NCBI RefSeq assembly: GCF_018069625.1
Contig: NZ_CP072941.1
Location: forward strand, 2,046,001 to 2,110,000
Length of the DNA stretch: 64,000 bases
DNA from: Streptomyces yatensis
GTDB taxonomy: Bacteria; Actinomycetota; Actinomycetes; Streptomycetales; Streptomycetaceae
Direction of reading: 5' to 3'
Both the position numbers and the translations under genes were made by a program. Below are positions 281 to 14,235 of this stretch, piece after piece (position 1 is the first letter of the stretch; each line of letters starts with the position of its first letter). The notes beneath the pieces were generated by a model. That model searched no databases, was not told the DNA's origin, and saw nothing but the letters and a program-made list of their open reading frames with translations.

Positions 281-877
281 GTGACTTCAGCGAACGGGCG
301 CAGGCGCGCCCTCGTCCATACGGCGGCCCTGGGACTGCTGGCGGCCTCGGCGACCGCCGTGGCCTTACTGGGGCAGCAGCCCCCGGCCCGCGCGGCCGCC
401 GAAGCCCCGGCCGTGCCCCTGCCGTTGACCTGCAAGGGCACGGCCACGGTGGAGCCCACCAACCCCGACCTGGTGCTCGTGCGCGACCAGAGCGGCGTCG
501 CGGGCTACCGGGCCACCATCACCGGAAACTGCCTCGGCTCCGCCGTGGTCTCCAAGGTGCGGGTCACCCTGGAGGGCATGGCCGAGGGCACCTGTGCCGC
601 GGCCATCGGCACCGGCACCGGCACGGCGGAGTGGATCGGGCCGGGCGGTGCGCGGGTCGGCACCAGCACCGGTGGCGGCAAGCTCCACTTCACCAACGAC
701 GCCGACGGCAACGTCACCTTCCGGGCCGAGAACGTGCAGATCGCCAGGGGCCTCTTCGCAGGCTCCGTGGGCGTCGACATCACGGTGAACGACCGCGGTG
801 TGGGCCGGGACTGCTGGACGCAGGGCAGGCTGGCCGGCGGCTCGGGCAGCGGCTCAGCGCGGCTGACGTTCGGCTGA
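281..877 (+). CDS. Small secreted protein of unknown function
   Basis: This 198-residue protein has a clear Sec signal: a basic start (GRRRALVH), a hydrophobic core at about residues 10-28, and an Ala-rich cleavage region near ARAAAEA (about 36-42). The mature part is rich in Gly, Thr and Val, looks like a beta-sandwich, and holds four cysteines that could form disulfides. I do not recognise the family. The GTG start follows a GGAGAAG ribosome site by four bases. Its last 24 bases overlap the 3' end of the converging MMPL gene, so the two transcripts are antisense there. An extracellular role is likely; nothing more specific is supported. Confidence 0.75.
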   Translation: MTSANGRRRALVHTAALGLLAASATAVALLGQQPPARAAAEAPAVPLPLTCKGTATVEPTNPDLVLVRDQSGVAGYRATITGNCLGSAVVSKVRVTLEGMAEGTCAAAIGTGTGTAEWIGPGGARVGTSTGGGKLHFTNDADGNVTFRAENVQIARGLFAGSVGVDITVNDRGVGRDCWTQGRLAGGSGSGSARLTFG

Positions 878-3091
878 CGCCCCGGCGGGGGCCGGAAGCC
901 GTGCCGCGTGTTCCGGGGCGGCCTCCGGTCGCCCGCCCTTGCCGGTACGCCATTTCCGCCCGCCCTTACCCGAACGGGACTTCCCGGCCGTGCCGGAGCT
1001 CCGAGAGAAGGGCCACCACCAGTTCGCCGCGCCGAGCAGCCGCATCACGGCGGGTACCAGGACCGCCCGTACGAGCACCGCATCGATCAGCACCGCCAGG
1101 AAGACACCGACGCAGATCTCCTTCACCATGACCACGCTGCTGGTCGCGAAGCAGGCCGTCACCACCAGAACGGCCGCCGCTGCGGCGCTGATCACCCGCC
1201 CCGAGCGCTCGATCCCCACCGCCACCGACTCCCGGTCGTCCCCGAGCAGGCGGTACTGCTCCCGGATGCGCAGCAGCAGGAACAGTTCGTAGTCCATGGA
1301 CACCGCGATGAGGAGGAACAGCATGACGATGGGGGCCAGCGCGTCCACGTAACCCGTCGGTTCGGCGCCGAGCGGCCGGCTGGCGTGTCCGTCCTGGAAG
1401 ATCCAGGTGAGGGCGCCGAAGGAGGCGCCGATGGACAGGCCGTTCATCACCAGCGCCTTGAGGGGAAGTACGAGCGAGCGCAGGGCGACGGTGAGCAGCA
1501 CCAAGCTCGTGATCACCATGAAGGCCAGCACCCGGGGCAGCAGCCGGTAGAAGGTGTCCATGGTGTCCACGGCGAGGGCCGACGCGCCGCCCACCAGCAC
1601 ACCGCTGCCGCCGGGTACGGGCAGCGCGCGCACGGCCCGTACCAGTGACTTGGCCGATTCACTCTCCACCCGCTGGTCCTGGCCGACGTAGACGACGGCC
1701 TTGTTCCCGGTGGTCCCGGCCACCAGCACCCCACGGGCGCCGGGGAGTCCGGAGACGTGCCGCGTCCAGGTCAGCAGGTCGGCGTGGCCCCGGCCGCGGT
1801 CCACGGGGTGGTCGAAGGTGGCGATGGCCTGCAGGGTGCCGAGGCCGGAGACGGCGAAGTCGTGTTCCATGCGTTCGGCCGCCACCCGGGCCGGCGCCCC
1901 GGCGGGCAGCATCCGCTGGTCCGGGAAGCCGATGACGGTGTGCAGGAACGGCACCGCGAGGGCGAGCAGCAGCGCGGAGACGGCGCAGGTGTAGGCGATG
2001 GGCTTCTGCATCACCGCACGGGCCACGCGGCCCCACAGCGCGCCGTCCCGGCGGCCGTCCTGGCGCCGTAGCCAGGCCGGTGAGAGCGCGTCCACGCGGT
2101 CGCCCAGGCAGAACAGCAGGGCGGGCAGCACCGTCACCGTCACCAGGGCTCCCACCAGCAGCCCGGCCGCCGCGCCGATGCCCAGCGCGCGGACGAAGCC
2201 GAGCGGGAAGAAGGCGAGGCCCACGGCGATGAAGGTCATGACGACGCCGGAGAGCGCCACCGTCCGCCCGGCGGTGTCGACGGTGATGGCGACGGCCTCC
2301 GCCGGGGTGCGTCCGGCCCGCAGCTCCTCCCGGAATCTGCTGACGATGAGCAGACCGGCGTCGACGCCCGCGGCGAGGCCGATGGCCACCACGAGGTTGA
2401 CCGTCACATACGGGACCTCGATGACATCGGCCACGGCGCGCAGCGCGGCGAGGGCGGCGGCCGTCGCCAGGACTCCGGTGACCACCGGCAGCAGCGCGGC
2501 GACCACGCCCCGGAAGACGAACACCATCAGCAGCATCATCAGCGGCAGCACCATCAACTCAATGCGCACCAGGTCGCGTTGGGACCGCTGGACGATCTCC
2601 GAGATGATCGCGCTCGGCCCGGTCCAGGTGACCTCGAACCCCGGTGCGCGCAGGGCGTCCCGCAGCGCCAGATAGCTCTGGGTGCGGCCGGTCTCCCCGT
2701 CGCCCCGCAGCAGGACGGGCACCACGGTCGCGTGCTGGTCGAGGGAGACCAGCAGCGGATTGGCCGAGGACCAGGCCGTCGTCGCCCGGTCCACCGTGCC
2801 TTCGGGCGCCCGGCGCAACGCGTCCTCCACCGCTTCCCGGAAGGCGGGCCGGGCGGCGGTCAGCTCCTTGCTGCGGAAGGTGACCAGGACGTCCGCGCCG
2901 CCCTCCCCCACCTCGTTGCGGATCGCGTCCGCCGCCCGGGTCGCCTCGGCGGCCGGCGCCATGAACCCGCCGTAGCTGAGCCGCCCGGACAGCCCGGAAC
3001 ACGCCCAGCAGGAGACCACCAGCACCAGCACCGCCCCCGCGAGCACCCAGACCCTGCGCGCGACGTCGAAACGCCCCAGCCGGACGAACAT
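854..3091 (-). CDS. MMPL/RND family membrane exporter
   Basis: This is a 745-residue polytopic protein with the MmpL layout: TM1 (about 13-33), a large extracytoplasmic loop (about 40-175), five helices (about 178-340), a second loop (about 395-530), and a final helix bundle to about 690. MMPL proteins move lipids or hydrophobic compounds out of the cell using the proton gradient. The second relay site keeps the typical Asp-Tyr pair (D600-Y601 in SMDYELF). The first reads Asp-Ala (D244 in AGVDAGLL) where MmpL3 has Asp-Tyr, so relay chemistry may be asymmetric. The C-terminus is a basic Ser/Gly/Lys/Arg tail of about 55 residues. The ATG follows GGGAGGG. It is transcribed divergently from the next gene and has no local lipid synthesis gene, so the substrate is unknown. 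Confidence 0.9.
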   Translation of the reverse strand: MFVRLGRFDVARRVWVLAGAVLVLVVSCWACSGLSGRLSYGGFMAPAAEATRAADAIRNEVGEGGADVLVTFRSKELTAARPAFREAVEDALRRAPEGTVDRATTAWSSANPLLVSLDQHATVVPVLLRGDGETGRTQSYLALRDALRAPGFEVTWTGPSAIISEIVQRSQRDLVRIELMVLPLMMLLMVFVFRGVVAALLPVVTGVLATAAALAALRAVADVIEVPYVTVNLVVAIGLAAGVDAGLLIVSRFREELRAGRTPAEAVAITVDTAGRTVALSGVVMTFIAVGLAFFPLGFVRALGIGAAAGLLVGALVTVTVLPALLFCLGDRVDALSPAWLRRQDGRRDGALWGRVARAVMQKPIAYTCAVSALLLALAVPFLHTVIGFPDQRMLPAGAPARVAAERMEHDFAVSGLGTLQAIATFDHPVDRGRGHADLLTWTRHVSGLPGARGVLVAGTTGNKAVVYVGQDQRVESESAKSLVRAVRALPVPGGSGVLVGGASALAVDTMDTFYRLLPRVLAFMVITSLVLLTVALRSLVLPLKALVMNGLSIGASFGALTWIFQDGHASRPLGAEPTGYVDALAPIVMLFLLIAVSMDYELFLLLRIREQYRLLGDDRESVAVGIERSGRVISAAAAAVLVVTACFATSSVVMVKEICVGVFLAVLIDAVLVRAVLVPAVMRLLGAANWWWPFSRSSGTAGKSRSGKGGRKWRTGKGGRPEAAPEHAARLPAPAGASAERQPR

Positions 3092-7164: not shown

Positions 7165-8754
7165 TCAGGAGGGGCAGGCGCTCTTGGAGCCGCTGCGGTA
7201 GGTGCGGTAGAGGGCGGCCGCGCCCGGGGCGCCGGAGCGGGCGCTGGACGGGTACTCGACCACGGGGACGGGTTTGCAGACGGCCCATTGGTCGTTCTTG
7301 CCCGGGCCCTCGAAGCCGTAGGTGCCTCCGGCGCCGACCAGGCAGGAGCTGCACGAGTCGCCGGCGATGCTCGGGATGATGAGGGTGTTGTACACATCGT
7401 CCTTGGTCGGGATGCTCATCGCCTCCGGCGCCTTCTCGCCGCCCTCGTTGATCTCGGCGAAGGTGCGGTCCACGGCGCCCGCGAGCAGCGCGAAGGCGTC
7501 GTGGTACATCACGGCGTAGCCGTCGTCCAGCGGTTTGCCGCCCAGCTTGTGCCGCTTGCGTATCTCCTCGAAGCGGTCGAGGAAGCGGCCGAGCGCCTTC
7601 TTGGGGTTGCTCTTCCCCGCCCACCAGGCGGGGTCGACGGAGGAGGCGTCCACGATGGTGGCCCGTGCCTCGTCCAGCCACCGGGTGGGCGCGTCCGCGG
7701 TGAGGGTGGGCTCCAGGCCGATGCCGACCTTCAGGATGCGCAGCGTCGTGGTGCGCCCGCAGCTGCCCTCCTGCGCCATGCGCTCCATGAACGCGGGAAG
7801 GTCCTGGTCGCGGCCCGCGAAGAAGACGGTGTCGGACTTCTCGTTGCAGATCTTCTGCACGGCGTCGGTGAACCGCTGGGGGATGCCCTTGTCGGTTCCG
7901 GAGGTGCCGGTGAAGTTCGAGTTGTGGTTGGTCAGGTCGTACGCCGTGCCGAAGTGGCGCTCGAAGACGCTGCGCAGATTCTGGGAGTAGACGTCCTCGC
8001 CGCGGTTGTCCCAGACCAGGAAGCCCCGGTGCCCGGCCGGCTTCTTGTCCAGGTAGAGCCCCAGGGCGCGGGCGAACTGGTCGTTGTTGGGCGAGGTCTT
8101 GAAGAAGTACGGGGAGTTCATGTTGGCCGCGGTGATGACCGGGCCGACGGTGGGGATGCTGTGCTTGCTGAGCGCGGCGATGGCCCTGCGGGTCTCCGGG
8201 GTGCTGCTCGGGATGCCGGTCACGCCCACCAGCGGTGCCCGGGTGTCCTCGGCCAGCTCGGCGAGGCGATCGACGACGGGCTCCCAGCGGTCGAGGTTCC
8301 GGCCGTCGGGGGCGAGCAGCAGCTGGTACTGCGGCCCGCCGAAGCGGTTGGCCTGCCGTTGGGCGGCCAGGGCACCGGCGAGTCCGCGGCGGATCATGTC
8401 CACCGTCATGGCGCTGTGGTCGTCCGCGGTGAAGGGCATCATCAGCGCGATCCGCACGTACGGGATCTTGGGGCCGCTCGGCGGATCCTCCCAGTCCCGC
8501 CGCACCCGCTCGTTCTCGTCCGCGACCGCCCCGATGAGGCTTTCGATGCCCGGGTCCGCCTCGAAGGCTTCCGCGGTGACGCCCACGCAGTCTCCGTCGA
8601 TCTCCCGCAGATCGTCACCGCACCTGCCGGGGCCCTGCACCACATTGACGGCGACGGTGATCGCGCCGGCGACCAGGGCGCCGAGTCCGACGACGGCCAG
8701 CCATTCGAGCGGCCCCCACTCGCGAGGGTGACGGCGGAACAGACGGAACAGCAT
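7165..8754 (-). CDS. Membrane-anchored type-I periplasmic-binding-fold protein
   Basis: This 529-residue protein begins with a basic cytoplasmic stub (LFRLFRRHPREW) and one hydrophobic helix (about 17-40), with no cleavage site or lipobox, so it is probably anchored with its bulk outside the cell. The rest resembles the branched-chain amino acid receptor fold: VRIALMMPFTADDHSAMTVD (about 99-118), PLVGVTGIPSSTPETRR, PYFFKTSPNNDQFARALGLY and DTVFFAGRDQDLPAFMERM. Several Cys residues near the C-terminus (SCSSC) could form disulfides. No permease or ABC ATPase genes are nearby. Instead it follows an atypical P-loop gene by 6 bp and a NACHT-LRR gene. I infer a ligand-sensing rather than transport role. 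Fold assignment is fairly sure; function is open. Confidence 0.75.
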   Translation of the reverse strand: MLFRLFRRHPREWGPLEWLAVVGLGALVAGAITVAVNVVQGPGRCGDDLREIDGDCVGVTAEAFEADPGIESLIGAVADENERVRRDWEDPPSGPKIPYVRIALMMPFTADDHSAMTVDMIRRGLAGALAAQRQANRFGGPQYQLLLAPDGRNLDRWEPVVDRLAELAEDTRAPLVGVTGIPSSTPETRRAIAALSKHSIPTVGPVITAANMNSPYFFKTSPNNDQFARALGLYLDKKPAGHRGFLVWDNRGEDVYSQNLRSVFERHFGTAYDLTNHNSNFTGTSGTDKGIPQRFTDAVQKICNEKSDTVFFAGRDQDLPAFMERMAQEGSCGRTTTLRILKVGIGLEPTLTADAPTRWLDEARATIVDASSVDPAWWAGKSNPKKALGRFLDRFEEIRKRHKLGGKPLDDGYAVMYHDAFALLAGAVDRTFAEINEGGEKAPEAMSIPTKDDVYNTLIIPSIAGDSCSSCLVGAGGTYGFEGPGKNDQWAVCKPVPVVEYPSSARSGAPGAAALYRTYRSGSKSACPS

Positions 8755-8760
8755 GCTTCC

Positions 8761-10887
8761 TCACTGACCGGAGATAGGGAAGGGGCGCTTCTTCCGTGCC
8801 GCCGCGGGCCAGCTGCGGGCGGCCTGACCCAGGACCGCGTGCCAGGACGGGTGGCGCGGGGAGAGGTAGGCCAGCTCTTCGCCGACCGCCTTGCACATAT
8901 CGGGGTCCGGCTCGGCGTGCGGCTCGGACACATGCCACAGGGCGTGCAGCAGCCGGTTCACGCAGCGCTCGATCTCATGCAGTTCCGCGTACCGGCCGTC
9001 GTGCGCGCCGAGGGCGATCTGCATCCGTTCGTCGGTCCACTCCGCGGCCGGTGGGGTGGGCGCGGTGGCGGCGTACCGCAGGCACAGCAGCCAGTGGGCG
9101 GCGGCCTGGGCGTCCTTCTCCGACTGGAACTCCTCGGTCAGCATGGCCACCACCGTCTCCGCGTTTCCCGCGGCGAGGGTGTGCCGCAGGGCGTCCGCCT
9201 CGCCGCTCTCCCCGCGCTGGGCGTGGTGCATCCGCAGGAAGCGGTGGATGTCCTGCCAGCTGCGGCCGTCCTCGGCCCGCGAGGAGGTGCGGCGCGCCTC
9301 GTGGACGAGCAGCGTCCGCAGCAGCGCGTCGGTGACCAACGGCTCGTCGGGTGGGGTGAGTTGCTGCCACTGCTGCTCTTCGAGATAGTCGGTGGCGGAG
9401 TTGGCGGGCAGCTGGTCCGGGCCCTGGAGACGCAGATGCTCGGCCAGCGCCTCCGCCGCGGTGCTGTCGCGGGCGAGCGAGAGCAGGGTCAGCCGGTCGC
9501 GCTGGCGCCGGTTGGGGAGCAGCCGCTCCAGGAGCGCCTCGGTGACGGCGCGGCCGTCCTTGGCGTGCAGTTCGAGGAGGTCGCGCGGGCCCACGCCGCG
9601 GCCCCGCCTGGTGGCGTCCAGGACGGCCGCGCACAGGACGGTGGTCACCGCGGGATGCCCGCCGGTCAGGGAGTGCACGGCGGAGGCCAGATAGGGGTGG
9701 AGCGGCCGGGCGGGCCAGTCCGGCACCAGGAGGGGCAGGATGTCGTCCCGGCTCAGCGGGGTGAGGGGGACGGCGAGCAGTCCGGCGGACAGGGCCAGGC
9801 CGCCGCGCTGCCAGCCGGAGGACTTCACCAGGTCGGGCAGGTCGCGGCGGATGGCGGCCGACGCGTTCTCCGGCAGGCCGCCGAGGCGGGTGGCCACGAC
9901 GACGAGCTCCTCGTGGTCGGGGCGTTCGGGCAGCGCGCGGTGTTCGAGGAGCAGGTCGAGGAAGTCCTGCCCGGGCGGGAAGTGGGCGTCGTCGAGCAGG
10001 ATGAGCGGCCAGGGCTCCCGGTTCCACCGCTGCAGCCTGCCGTAGGAGGAGGCGACATCGTGGAGGAAGGCGGCCATCAGGCTCTGCTCGGCCGCGTGCC
10101 GGTAGTCGCCGCCCCGCTGGAACCACTCCCCGAGCAGCACCAGCGGATCCCGGCCGTCCGCGCCCCGCGGGAAGCGCCGCCGGTACCACTCCCGCGCCGC
10201 GGCCGGCTGATACCGGTCGGTGTACTCCGCCACCACGGCGGCGGTGACCGCGTCCCGGCCCCACTCCGCGTCGGCCTGCGCGCCGGTCGTCTCCAGACGG
10301 CCTTCGACGGCGGTGGCCCAGGCGTGTCTCAGCGCGTTCTCGTCCCCGTCGGCGAGTCGGCAGGCGAGCAGCAGCCGGGCGAAGGTCAGGCATGCCACGT
10401 CCCGCTGCTCGCCGTTGCCCAGGGACCAGCCGGAGACGGCGAACAGGCCGGGCACCAGGACCGGGAAGCGGCGGCGCACATCGGGGGCGAGCCCGCACAC
10501 CAGCTCCGCGAGGATCTCCACGAGGGTCGAGGCGGTGGGGGCTCGACCGTCGGCCGGGGCGGGCGGGAACGTCTCGGATTCGGTGGCCACGGCGCGGACA
10601 TGGGCCAGCGGCAGCCGGCCGCGGTAGCGCGCGGCGAGCTCTTCGAGCACCGCGCTGCGCCCCATGCCGTGGTATCCCGTCACCAGCACCAGGGGAAGGT
10701 CGCCCTGGTGCTCGCGGCCCACCCGGGACCGCTCGTCGTAGGCCAGGCCGGTCAGCCGGGGAACGAGTGAGCGCAGCAGAGGGTCCCGGCCATAGAGCGG
10801 TGACCCTTCCGATACGCGCATCCTGCTGCGTCCCGCCTCAGTCGTCCTCTGCTGCCCGGCAGCCGTGACCTCGGAGACGGGCGGCAC
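8761..10887 (-). CDS. P-loop ATPase-like protein with Arg in Walker A
   Basis: The product has 708 residues. The N-terminal region carries LYGRDPLLRSLVPRL and then LVLVTGYHGMGRSAVLEE, an ORC/STAND-type entry motif with a P-loop. G71-xxxx-G76-R77-S78 has arginine where lysine is normally essential. A Walker B-like PLILLDDAHFPP follows near residue 300. The rest is helical, with a winged-helix-like section and an Ala/Leu-rich C-terminal half that may be a repeat scaffold. No membrane segment is seen. GTG at 10887 follows GGGGGAG closely; an ATG at 10821 is a weaker alternative. It lies 130 bp downstream of the NACHT gene and 6 bp upstream of the binding-fold gene, so the three are probably one operon. 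ATP hydrolysis may be weak or lost. Confidence 0.7.
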   Translation of the reverse strand: MPPVSEVTAAGQQRTTEAGRSRMRVSEGSPLYGRDPLLRSLVPRLTGLAYDERSRVGREHQGDLPLVLVTGYHGMGRSAVLEELAARYRGRLPLAHVRAVATESETFPPAPADGRAPTASTLVEILAELVCGLAPDVRRRFPVLVPGLFAVSGWSLGNGEQRDVACLTFARLLLACRLADGDENALRHAWATAVEGRLETTGAQADAEWGRDAVTAAVVAEYTDRYQPAAAREWYRRRFPRGADGRDPLVLLGEWFQRGGDYRHAAEQSLMAAFLHDVASSYGRLQRWNREPWPLILLDDAHFPPGQDFLDLLLEHRALPERPDHEELVVVATRLGGLPENASAAIRRDLPDLVKSSGWQRGGLALSAGLLAVPLTPLSRDDILPLLVPDWPARPLHPYLASAVHSLTGGHPAVTTVLCAAVLDATRRGRGVGPRDLLELHAKDGRAVTEALLERLLPNRRQRDRLTLLSLARDSTAAEALAEHLRLQGPDQLPANSATDYLEEQQWQQLTPPDEPLVTDALLRTLLVHEARRTSSRAEDGRSWQDIHRFLRMHHAQRGESGEADALRHTLAAGNAETVVAMLTEEFQSEKDAQAAAHWLLCLRYAATAPTPPAAEWTDERMQIALGAHDGRYAELHEIERCVNRLLHALWHVSEPHAEPDPDMCKAVGEELAYLSPRHPSWHAVLGQAARSWPAAARKKRPFPISGQ

Positions 10888-11016
10888 CGCTCCCCCGAGA
10901 CATCAGCCGCTGACATCCGTACCAACTACGCCTACTTTCTTGAACTTACCCGTTGGGTAAACATCCCACCAGGTAATCGCGGCACCGGGTGTGAGCCGGG
11001 TGGGCGGTGGCGCCGG

Positions 11017-14000
11017 TCAGGGGTGCGGGTAGATGTCGAGTTCCACGCTGTCGGGGAGCGAGTCCGCGCCGCGTATCTCGCCCGGGTAGACAAGCCGCAC
11101 CCGGCGCAGCCGGGGCAGTCCGGCGAGGGAGGCGAGATCGAGCTCGGCGACCTGCGACAGATGGATCTCCTCGAGCCCCGGGAGGCGCCGGGCGATCCGC
11201 CGCAGCGGCACCGCGGAACCGGCCCTGGCCCATACATCCAGGTGGGTGACCTGGGGGATCTCGGTACGGGGGGCGAACAGCAGCATGCTCAGCTGCTGCG
11301 GGGAGAGCGTCAGCTTCCGCAGCTGGGGCAACTCGGCGATGAGGGAGCCCCATTCGTCCGGGGCCAGGCGCTCGCTGGCGTCCTGCAGCCGCAGCTCCTC
11401 CAGCTCCCGGCACTCCACGATCCCGGCGAGCTGCGCCGCCGACGACGGCAGGGAGAGCAGCCGCAGCTCGGCGGGGCGCGGGAGGTCGGGCAGACCGCGC
11501 CAGGGCACCTCCGGTCCGACGAGGAGCCCCTCCAGCCGGGGGCAGTCGGCCAGTTTCAGCAGGGGCTCGAACTGGGGGAGGTCGCGCAGCTCCAGCCTCC
11601 GCAGATGGGGCAGCCGGGTCAGCGGCGTGGGGTCCTTGACGTTCCGGCATCCCTGCAGGGCGACCGTCTCCAGCTCGGGGTAGGCGGAGAGCAGGGTGAG
11701 GTCCTCCAGCCGCAGGGTGTTGCGCAGGCGCAGCTCGCGCAGCCGGCGCGGGTCGAGCGAGGCGCGGATGTCCTCCGGGTCGAAGTCGCCGTGCAGGCCC
11801 ACGCGTTGGTAGCCGGACATGGTGCGCAGCGCCTCCAGCTCGGCGGGTGAGCGCACCGTGACGATCTCCTCGGGGGCGGTGTCGAGGAGCGGCCGTACGA
11901 TCTCCTCCGCGTAGACCTTGGTGTCGAACCGGTCCCAGTGGGCGAGGAGTTGGGCGCGCACCGCGGGCTGGCCGGTGCCCAGGAACTCCCGGAGCCTGGG
12001 GATGGCGGCGTCCCCGCCGATCTGGCAGATCGCGTGGACGGTGGCCAGCTCCTCGTCGCCCTCCAGGTCCTTGGCGTCGGGCAGCAGGCCCAGCAGCAGC
12101 GGGCCCGTCTGCGCCAGTGACCTGGCCTCCCGCAGGCTGCGCGGCGGCAGCAGCCGGGCGGCCCGGTCCTCGATGGCCTCGCGCACCGTCGGCTCCAGGC
12201 GGGTGGCCTGTTCGAGGGAGGCGAGGGCGAGGAGCCTCAGCCGCGCCTGGACGGTGGCGTCCTGCTCCCGGTCGCCCCGCTCGCGCAGGCGGGTCAGCAG
12301 GTCGGCACGCTCTTGGTGACGAGCCTGAGCGACGGCCATCTGCACCACGTCCTCCCACTGGTCCAGGTGTGCGTTGTTCACCAGCATGCCCATATCGCGC
12401 TCTTCCAGCACGGCCCTGGCGCCCAGGAAGTCCTGGAAGGTGCGGTGGATGAAGTCGACCGCGCCCGGGGCCGGTTCGCGCAGCAGACCGGAGCGCTCCA
12501 GCAGATGCTGCAGGGCCTCCTCCGCCGTTCCGACGTCGGCGAGGCGGGGGACGGAGGGCTGGAGCCGCCGCACCACGTTGACCGCGTCGGGGCGGTCGAG
12601 CTGTGTCCGCTCGTTGCGGATCAGCCAGTACGCGAGCCTCTGGAGCGGCTCGGTGGCCGACTTCTGGTCCAGGGCCGGACGGCCGCGGCCGTAGACCTCG
12701 CGCTCCAGGTCGCGCCGCTCCAGGAGCATGGAGAGCGCCGCCTCGTACAGGGAGGCGCGGCCCTGGGGCAGGAAGCCGCGCCGCTCCCGGTGCAGGGCGC
12801 AGATCAGGCCGCACATCAGCGGGTTGGTCGCCAGGCGGCTCAGCTCGGGGCTGCTGCGCAGCGACAGCGAGAGGGACTCGCCGAGCTCCTGCGAGGCTCC
12901 CGCCGCGGTGTGCCAGCGCCGGATGAACTGCTTCATGTCGGCGGGCCGCATCGCGGCGAGCGCGAACTCCTGGAACCCCTCGCGGGCCAGCCAGCCCCGT
13001 TCCAGGGCCGAGGGGCGGGAGGTGAGCAGCCACAGGTTGCCGGGGAAGACGGCGAGCAGCTTCTTCAGCCAGGCCCGCACCCGGGCCCGGTCGTCCTTCG
13101 GGATCTCGTCGGCCCCGTCGATCAGGAGCACGCCGCGCCCGTGCCGCAGCACCCGGGCGGCCCAGCCGTCGGGCTCGGTGCCCACCAGTGGGCAGCCGAT
13201 CCAGCGCAGGAAGTCATCGGGCATGGGCAGTTCGGAGTCCCTGCGCGCCAGGGTGCGCAGCGGCAGGACGAAGGGGACGCGCCCGAACAGCTGCGAGAGC
13301 CCGCCCGGCACCCGGTCCTGCTGGGCCGTGGAGAGGGCCAGCCACTGGACGAGGGTGGTCTTGCCGGTGCCGGCGACGCCGCGCAGCAGGACGCGCTCAT
13401 GGCTGGCGAAGACCGCCTCGGCCGGGCCCGCGGCCCGCTCGGCCTCGGTGTCCCGGTCGGCCCCGGGCTCGCCGCTGACCACCGGCACCCGGTCGGTGCC
13501 GTCGCGGTACGGCCTGGCCTCCAGGCTCAGATAGGCGGTCTCCAGCGGCCAGTCCTGGCCGTCCGGTTCGCGGAGGTCGACGCCGTAGATCGTGAGCCGG
13601 CCGTGGCACTCGACGACGTAGCGCGCGTACTCCTCCTCGAACCGCGCGTCCTGGTGGCTGATGTCCGGCAGCCGCCGCAGGATGGAGTCCAATTTCTCGC
13701 TCTGCTCCCGGATCTCGCGGCTCTGCTCGATCTGGGCCCGGGCCGCGAATCCGGGCCGCTGGCTGAAGAAGCGCATGAGGTGGAGGCAGGCCGTCTCCAG
13801 CAGCCGGTCGTGGAAGCGGGCGGCGTCGTCGCTCAGCAGCCTGCGCGTGTCGGGGCCGGCGCGCCGGGACAGCTCCGCGGCCAGCCGCTCGGGGCCGAGC
13901 GCGAAGGCGTGGACGTCGTCCATGTCGAGATCGCCGAGGGCGTGCAGGGTGCGGGTGAGCGCCTGGCCGACGGAGTCGTGCTCGTCGGCGCCGATCGGCG

Positions 14001-14235
14001 GATCGTGCGGCCCGGCGGCCCGCACGGCGCGGCGGACCAGCTCGCGGGCGAGCTTGTGCAGATCGTCCTCGGTGAGGGTGCGGTGCTCCCGGGCGAAGGA
14101 CACCAGCCGGCGGATCGGCACGGGCCGCTCGCCGTACTCCGCCCCGGGCGCGCTCGCGGGCGGCAGCAGCAGCCGTTTGACCACCGGCACGACCACTGCC
14201 GACGCGATCCGCAGCCCCACCGTGCCGCCGTCCAC
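11017..14235 (-). CDS. NACHT-domain STAND NTPase with C-terminal leucine-rich repeats
   Basis: The protein has 1072 residues. An N-terminal helical region (1-190) is followed by a NACHT module: Walker A GVAGTGKT (286-293), Walker B LLIDGADE (370-377), sensor LLTSRPS (403-409), NPL (471-473), and a winged-helix end with FIHRTFQDFLGARA (595-608). A HEAT-like helical stretch (about 640-790) leads into leucine-rich repeats (about 800-1060), with recurring LxxLxLxx phrases such as LRELRLRNTLRLEDLTLL. NACHT proteins are switches that oligomerise on ligand binding; bacterial ones include anti-phage bNACHT proteins. No nuclease, protease or TIR effector is visible in the N-terminus, so the effector could be the helical domain or a partner. 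GTG follows GAGGGAGGGG. It heads the three-gene unit. Confidence 0.88.
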   Translation of the reverse strand: MDGGTVGLRIASAVVVPVVKRLLLPPASAPGAEYGERPVPIRRLVSFAREHRTLTEDDLHKLARELVRRAVRAAGPHDPPIGADEHDSVGQALTRTLHALGDLDMDDVHAFALGPERLAAELSRRAGPDTRRLLSDDAARFHDRLLETACLHLMRFFSQRPGFAARAQIEQSREIREQSEKLDSILRRLPDISHQDARFEEEYARYVVECHGRLTIYGVDLREPDGQDWPLETAYLSLEARPYRDGTDRVPVVSGEPGADRDTEAERAAGPAEAVFASHERVLLRGVAGTGKTTLVQWLALSTAQQDRVPGGLSQLFGRVPFVLPLRTLARRDSELPMPDDFLRWIGCPLVGTEPDGWAARVLRHGRGVLLIDGADEIPKDDRARVRAWLKKLLAVFPGNLWLLTSRPSALERGWLAREGFQEFALAAMRPADMKQFIRRWHTAAGASQELGESLSLSLRSSPELSRLATNPLMCGLICALHRERRGFLPQGRASLYEAALSMLLERRDLEREVYGRGRPALDQKSATEPLQRLAYWLIRNERTQLDRPDAVNVVRRLQPSVPRLADVGTAEEALQHLLERSGLLREPAPGAVDFIHRTFQDFLGARAVLEERDMGMLVNNAHLDQWEDVVQMAVAQARHQERADLLTRLRERGDREQDATVQARLRLLALASLEQATRLEPTVREAIEDRAARLLPPRSLREARSLAQTGPLLLGLLPDAKDLEGDEELATVHAICQIGGDAAIPRLREFLGTGQPAVRAQLLAHWDRFDTKVYAEEIVRPLLDTAPEEIVTVRSPAELEALRTMSGYQRVGLHGDFDPEDIRASLDPRRLRELRLRNTLRLEDLTLLSAYPELETVALQGCRNVKDPTPLTRLPHLRRLELRDLPQFEPLLKLADCPRLEGLLVGPEVPWRGLPDLPRPAELRLLSLPSSAAQLAGIVECRELEELRLQDASERLAPDEWGSLIAELPQLRKLTLSPQQLSMLLFAPRTEIPQVTHLDVWARAGSAVPLRRIARRLPGLEEIHLSQVAELDLASLAGLPRLRRVRLVYPGEIRGADSLPDSVELDIYPHP

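Follow-up and report, generated by a model that had tools for sequence, protein, structure and literature searches.

The 64,000-nucleotide stretch of Streptomyces yatensis DNA analysed here (the window; contig NZ_CP072941.1, positions 2,046,001 to 2,110,000, from a genome that is a single 10.36-Mb contig) carries on its minus strand, in this gene order, the genes for a NACHT protein with leucine-rich repeats (NACHT-LRR), a P-loop protein and a membrane-anchored protein with a type-I periplasmic-binding, or Venus flytrap, fold (Table 1). We propose that the flytrap and the P-loop protein may form a two-protein transmembrane receptor, coupled to a NACHT switch that resembles the nucleotide-binding leucine-rich-repeat receptors (NLRs), a reading to which we attach a probability of roughly 0.45. 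It is carried by the conserved linkage of the three genes, the folds of their products, the loss of a motif in the P-loop protein, conserved pocket-like residues in the flytrap, and relatives in which a P-loop-like domain, a transmembrane segment and a flytrap are joined in a single chain. No description of this gene set was found in the literature searched, in which most subscription journals lay outside coverage, hence this is no proof of absence.

The existence of such a set on one strand, noticed in a sequence-only reading of this DNA, is borne out by the frames, the codon composition and Pfam. The third-position G+C content of the three frames is 0.93–0.95, and their codon composition fits real genes in a high-GC genome. 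Pfam recognises the NACHT domain with 99.8 bits against a cut-off of 26.7 and Peripla_BP_6 in the binding protein with 31.8 bits against 31.7; AAA_16 matches the P-loop protein below cut-off only, and two LRR models lie just under theirs, leucine-rich repeats being readable in the NACHT protein sequence. Sequence searches of the PDB with the three proteins returned 0, 2 and 0 matches, the two being weak. The more likely start of the P-loop protein, to judge from the sequences, is the 23rd codon of its longest frame, the ATG at 10821 (22 codons later), because an equivalent ATG stands in the same place in 20 of the 22 trio loci compared (the window and 21 others), a stop just upstream of it excludes a longer start in L121, L123 and L124, residues 6–27 are unordered in the structure model, and the database entry (P0005) has 686 residues. 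The gap between the NACHT and P-loop genes is therefore likely 195 bp and not 130 bp as first given, whereas the 6 bp between the P-loop and binding-protein genes stands. A GAGGAAG stretch here overlaps the stop codon of the P-loop gene.

Comparison across genomes indicates that the window's clade inherits the trio as a unit, because the genes co-occur in the same genomes, keep a constant order amid changed flanks and have correlated distances. All 13 loci found by scanning one collection with the binding protein contain the three genes in the same order. Among 392 Streptomyces genomes, relatives of the P-loop protein at E ≤1e-75 occur in 28 and relatives of the NACHT protein at E ≤1e-270 in 29; both lists show a break in identity, above which the P-loop matches (at least 57%) and the NACHT matches (at least 67%) fall in the same 21 genomes, and below which the NACHT matches, at 48–51% identity, are located elsewhere in the genome. 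An additional trio, L179, came from a separate search. The order NACHT, P-loop, flytrap and the shared strand are kept in 22 of 22 loci, the flanks of which form 10 context groups, and over 231 pairs the distances computed for the three proteins show correlations of 0.925–0.958, as shared descent would likewise produce. The nearest named relatives are Streptomyces of the S. violaceusniger group. The sequence-only reading had allowed for a chance neighbourhood, with homologues rarely adjacent in other genomes; within this clade, adjacency in constant order is what was found. As a separate observation among the 13 loci, the P-loop gene is split by a frameshift in L007/L127 and the binding-protein gene is split in L015, sequencing error and decay not being distinguished.

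The flytrap protein has one hydrophobic segment, near its N-terminus, and would adopt an N-in/C-out topology. Its modelled fold is nearest to amino-acid-binding proteins, namely leucine- and branched-chain amino-acid-binding proteins, and also AmiC, and pocket-like residues are conserved across the 64 aligned rows (S184 in 63, T/S208 in 62, N224 in 61 and Y256 in all). The predicted fold of the P-loop protein falls among the AAA+ proteins of the signal-transduction ATPase (STAND) and origin-recognition-complex (ORC) type, NLR resistosomes included. Its Walker A lysine is an arginine, so the label of NTPase is doubtful for this protein, and the earlier description of two NTPase-like proteins does not hold as one of two clearly working NTPases. 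The NACHT protein retains an intact Walker A motif (GxAGTGKTT, as GVAGTGKTT or GLAGTGKTT) and the Walker B D/E in all 22 trio members. Its NNH1 domain starts with a hydrophobic helix, GTVGLRIASAVVVPVVKRLLLPP, similar in the 22 trio members and in two more distant relatives, and this helix may act on membranes.

Further support comes from proteins in which the flytrap is part of a longer chain. A profile search of 147 genomes of the order gave matches in 88, and roughly 40 of the weaker ones sit in open frames mostly longer than 840 aa. Ten single-chain proteins (L018 at 8366–11131, L177 at 7870–11430, and L180–L187) consist of a decayed P-loop-like domain, a hydrophobic segment and a flytrap; the hydrophobic segment stands directly before the flytrap in all ten that were read, with extra hydrophobic segments further upstream in L181, L182, L184 and L186. 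Over these ten proteins, the N-terminal part aligns with the NTPase domain of the P-loop family with an HHalign probability of 97.4 (E 9.6e-12, 252 columns), the P-loop motif itself being decayed. Single-chain receptors are apparently common in Streptomyces. The protein L176 (9161–11326), a candidate one-component transmembrane regulator, combines a helix-turn-helix (HTH) domain, HTH_31 by Pfam, with a membrane helix and a flytrap, and in L172 the helix and flytrap follow another N-terminus, for which no family was called. The presence of the flytrap in one chain with cytoplasmic-type domains therefore supports a receptor of which the P-loop protein would be the inner half. In Nonomuraea, a flytrap relative was seen on its own (L021, 8791–10353); it ends next to a protein on the opposite strand that, by its sequence, looks like a Ser/Thr kinase.

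Table 1. Features of the three-gene locus (positions in the window; all on the minus strand)
Feature	Position	Strand	Basis or remark
NACHT-LRR (NLR-like) protein, 1072 aa, GTG start	11017..14235	-	Pfam, Walker A
NNH1 N-terminal helical domain, residues 7-186	13678..14217	-	Pfam NNH1 E 7.6e-49, above cut-off
NACHT domain, residues 281-444	12904..13395	-	Pfam NACHT E 1.9e-28, above cut-off
Leucine-rich-repeat region, about residues 791-1072	11020..11865	-	LRR models just under Pfam cut-off
Palindrome TTACCC-AAC-GGGTAA, overlapping the promoter-like element	10946..10960	-	perfect TTACCC/GGGTAA arms in 8/22 trio gaps
Conserved promoter-like element GGTAAGTTC-N-AGTTG between NACHT and P-loop genes	10923..10950	-	strict pattern, 16/22 trio gaps
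P-loop protein, STAND/ORC-like fold, 686 aa from likely start	8761..10821	-	first listed as 8761-10887, 708 aa
Walker A motif GYHGMGRS, lysine replaced by arginine	10654..10677	-	22/22 trio members
Membrane-anchored type-I binding protein (Venus flytrap), 529 aa	7165..8754	-	Pfam, fold match
Predicted membrane helix, residues 15-39, behind short basic N-terminal tail	8638..8712	-	model helix 15-39; hydropathy peak 21-39

At the evolutionary level, the sequences indicate that a receptor module of two genes, P-loop and flytrap, is the older unit, and that one branch of it gained NACHT in place of another protein, here called X. Of 150 Streptomyces genomes, 60 have relatives of the P-loop protein, with identities mostly of 30–40%. 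In a profile search, with profiles built from alignments containing many of the same loci, the P-loop and flytrap genes lie on the same strand, adjacent or overlapping, in 77 of 81 P-loop loci (gene calling over-extends starts in the relatives' loci, hence negative gaps); the flytrap gene is not beside the P-loop gene in L068, L075, L090 and L098, and L136 was missed by the single-sequence search and found by the profile. A tree of 79 P-loop proteins, built by a quick method with SH-aLRT (a likelihood-ratio test) support only, groups all 20 NACHT-linked rows on a single branch (support 100). The neighbouring branches contain nine members with protein X, of 270–430 aa and without a Pfam family, immediately upstream of the P-loop gene (L057, L058, L059, L060 and L133–L137; L178, found later, is outside the tree), and NACHT takes the position held by X in all nine of these other members of the clade. 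X-like proteins also stand alone, eight of nine further loci read having neither a P-loop nor a flytrap gene beside them; in the ninth, L188 (G047, 8353–10650), a broken flytrap gene comes after X and a P-loop gene was not found, which has the look of a decaying module. Outside the NACHT/X clade the upstream gene varies; those read include HSP90, luciferase-like, major facilitator superfamily and amino-acid permease proteins by Pfam, and a 2-oxoglutarate-dependent oxygenase-like and a LacI-like protein by reading of the sequence. A distant pair on a plasmid of Embleya has, 165 bp upstream, the gene for another NACHT-domain protein (L019, 4386–6530), which scores 27.5 bits where the cut-off is 26.7; this may be a second coupling or chance. 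The outside-to-inside module of the sequence-only reading is partly supported, by the conserved linkage, the near-absence of ABC-type frames beside the binding-protein gene, the receptor fold with its pocket-like residues and the single-chain relatives. It is not one ancient three-gene unit: a fixed ancient trio was rejected, since the pair is older and mostly without NACHT.

It can be hypothesised that the three proteins form a physical complex that signals from the outside inwards. The anchored flytrap would bind a small, probably amino-acid-like molecule outside the membrane and would pass the signal through its one helix and its short tail in the cytoplasm to the P-loop protein at the inner face. 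The latter, which is probably no ATPase because its Walker A lysine is replaced by arginine, may be a nucleotide-binding or structural scaffold that holds or nucleates the NACHT-LRR protein, the sole partner with an intact NTPase motif. On a signal, the NACHT protein would be activated and oligomerise, and the NNH1 domain with its leading hydrophobic helix may act at or near the membrane and bring about a protective response, e.g. growth arrest or cell death. A more specific version, which we hold only tentatively and consider rather less likely true than false, is that of a bacterial NLR controlled from outside, in which the flytrap and an NTPase-dead STAND scaffold would be the sensor half of an NLR pair and the intact NACHT-LRR protein the executor, the whole having evolved through replacement of an older partner in the cytoplasm, X, by NACHT in a receptor family that has single-chain and HTH-coupled forms as well.

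Several points weigh against the coupling of receptor and NACHT switch. The NACHT association has, on the tree, a single origin, so that the 22 trio members are not independent and a purely inherited neighbourhood is compatible with the data. In 57 of the 81 P-loop loci there is neither X nor a relative of the NACHT protein upstream, so the pair works in its absence, and no fusion of NACHT with the P-loop protein or the flytrap was seen in the loci read. The one candidate for a natural P-loop/flytrap fusion, P0121, was rejected and not used, being without a membrane helix and reading over long stretches as a shifted frame. Nor does the P-loop arginine appear tied to NACHT: in counts taken from alignment columns, 46 of the 50 members that lack both NACHT and X have the lysine, and the nine X-linked proteins have arginine in four, lysine in four and a gap in one, and loss of Walker A as a consequence of NACHT coupling was rejected since arginine also occurs in four of the nine. 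The correspondence of flytrap residues with those of metabotropic glutamate receptors is a presumed one. Finally, the promoter-like element between the NACHT and P-loop genes suggests that the P-loop/flytrap pair has a promoter of its own, separate from the NACHT gene, and joint transcription with NACHT is therefore not assured. The strict pattern, GGTAA-N-TTC ... AGTTG, was composed after inspection of the same gaps, of which 16 of 22 match it, and shuffled windows gave 0.05 matches each; looser forms occur in four of the other six gaps (L055, L123, L124 and L125), none was found in L122 and L126, and the strict pattern is absent from the 250 bp upstream of the NACHT gene in all 22 trio loci. 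The element recurs upstream of the P-loop genes of L096 and L097, distant pairs without NACHT; a promoter motif shared with the X genes was rejected, the loose pattern being absent upstream of nine out of nine. A scan for sigma-70 promoters found none. The terminator-like sites number two, where 1.4 would be expected by chance, and both lie on the opposite strand.

Among the alternatives, the best placed, though still unlikely, is an anti-phage system in which the NACHT-LRR protein itself senses phage components and the receptor pair sets a threshold or arms it according to the environmental state. Of the 11 trio loci situated on chromosome-scale contigs, 10 are in the outer quarter, where Streptomyces carry variable genes, compared with 6 of 22 family loci without the trio, hand-picked as lying on such contigs. 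The mean identity among the six most distant members is highest in the NACHT and post-NACHT parts (0.73), 0.59 in the LRR region and lowest in the linker of residues 191–280 (0.50); judged by these values, the LRR region is among the faster-evolving parts of the protein, the linker being faster still, which would suit a sensor of phage. The architecture is also that of the bacterial NLR-related NACHT proteins, or bNACHT (bNACHT25, for example), which protect E. coli against phage (PMC12169576). As in those proteins, there is a central NACHT with intact Walker motifs, here followed by a putative C-terminal sensor region; unlike them, the trio protein has an N-terminal NNH1 in place of a known nuclease, and a fixed linkage to a flytrap receptor pair. 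However, the best match of the PADLOC models to the trio is no better than E 0.0015, Pfam finds no known effector domain apart from NNH1, a named helical domain, and no defence genes were found among the flanking genes scanned around the window. An anti-phage role is thus not supported by the sequences compared.

Lower in rank, and improbable in our estimation, are two independent neighbours, in which case an NLR-like gene would have come to lie, on one occasion, beside a receptor pair unrelated to it, and descent would have preserved the arrangement. The single origin of the association, the separate promoter-like element and the wide occurrence of each part without the other are all in keeping with this; against it, order and strand are kept in every trio locus although the flanks have changed, NACHT sits where X sits in the rest of the clade, and a NACHT-domain protein lies upstream of the Embleya pair, a single case that may itself be chance.

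Less probable again is nutrient or developmental signalling, in which the flytrap would sense an amino-acid-like compound and the NACHT protein would be a regulatory, non-immune hub. The kinship of the flytrap fold with leucine- and branched-chain amino-acid-binding proteins and with AmiC agrees with it. AmiC signals without transport: in the AmiC-AmiR system of Pseudomonas (PDB 1qo0), as in our proposal, a type-I binding fold is the sensor that controls a protein partner, but AmiC is cytoplasmic and controls an antiterminator. The actinobacterial cascade GlnH-GlnX-PknG of Corynebacterium and Mycobacterium likewise has a binding protein that signals to a cytoplasmic effector and does not serve uptake; it differs in having GlnH as a lipoprotein of its own and, in GlnX, a membrane protein with four helices (PMC9769921), whereas the sensor of the trio is itself anchored and its partners are STAND-like. 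The gap element, as GTAA-N19/20-GTTG, resembles the motifs of the developmental sigma factor BldN (CGTAAC-N16-CGTTGA and CGTAA-N18,19-GTT; PMC2375139), its spacing differing by one or two. This resemblance is weak and unproven. Moreover, a patchy distribution (21 of 392 genomes), often on chromosome arms, would be unusual for a core nutrient sensor. Very improbable, and already disfavoured, is a binding protein that is the solute receptor of an ATP-binding-cassette (ABC) importer beside coincidental neighbours: many databases annotate the flytrap as "ABC transporter substrate-binding protein", but ABC uptake was rejected, since none of the 10 neighbouring window genes scanned encodes an ABC transporter and an open reading frame with the LSGG[QME] signature occurs in the stretch read beside the binding-protein gene in only 3 of 80 loci, while the flytrap has a 25-residue helix in the model with no lipobox seen and no cysteine ahead of C45, and its P-loop partner is no ABC ATPase by fold comparison. 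With respect to ABC transporters, the absence of transporter genes reported by the sequence-only reading stands for these neighbours, which include one MMPL-family membrane protein (854–3091), and the binding-fold gene is not habitually placed beside permeases in this clade.

With regard to other known systems, the receptor-coupled NACHT switch that we favour resembles System 4 of Kaur et al. (2020; PMC7159879) in being actinobacterial and membrane-associated, some System 4 members having a transmembrane helix and an extracellular periplasmic-binding-protein domain. System 4 is, however, a two-gene conflict system of EACC1 with a caspase or cyclic-nucleotide (cNMP) cyclase protein, and Pfam finds neither caspase nor cyclase in the trio (EACC1 was not searched with a model); furthermore, the binding domain there is one among many C-terminal parts that vary (PMC7159879), whereas the flytrap gene of the trio is constant.

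A different parallel is found in plants, where paired NLRs consist of two linked STAND-like proteins, one with an intact and one with an altered Walker A. The lineages are separate, and in the trio a membrane-anchored sensor of small-molecule type would replace the integrated decoy. To our knowledge, bacterial NLR-related proteins have so far been understood as sensors of intracellular things, and the activator of most is unknown. In the trio, one branch of these proteins is inherited together with a receptor-like module, which seemingly faces outward. If this proposition is true, the input of an NLR would become testable with defined ligands, bacteria would offer a counterpart of the NLR pairs in which one NTPase is dead, and Streptomyces would possess a receptor family, in single-chain, HTH-, X- and NACHT-coupled forms, whose members are currently annotated as transporter parts. 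The conserved arrangement suggests that a relative of the plant and animal immune sensors may be under the control of an outside signal.

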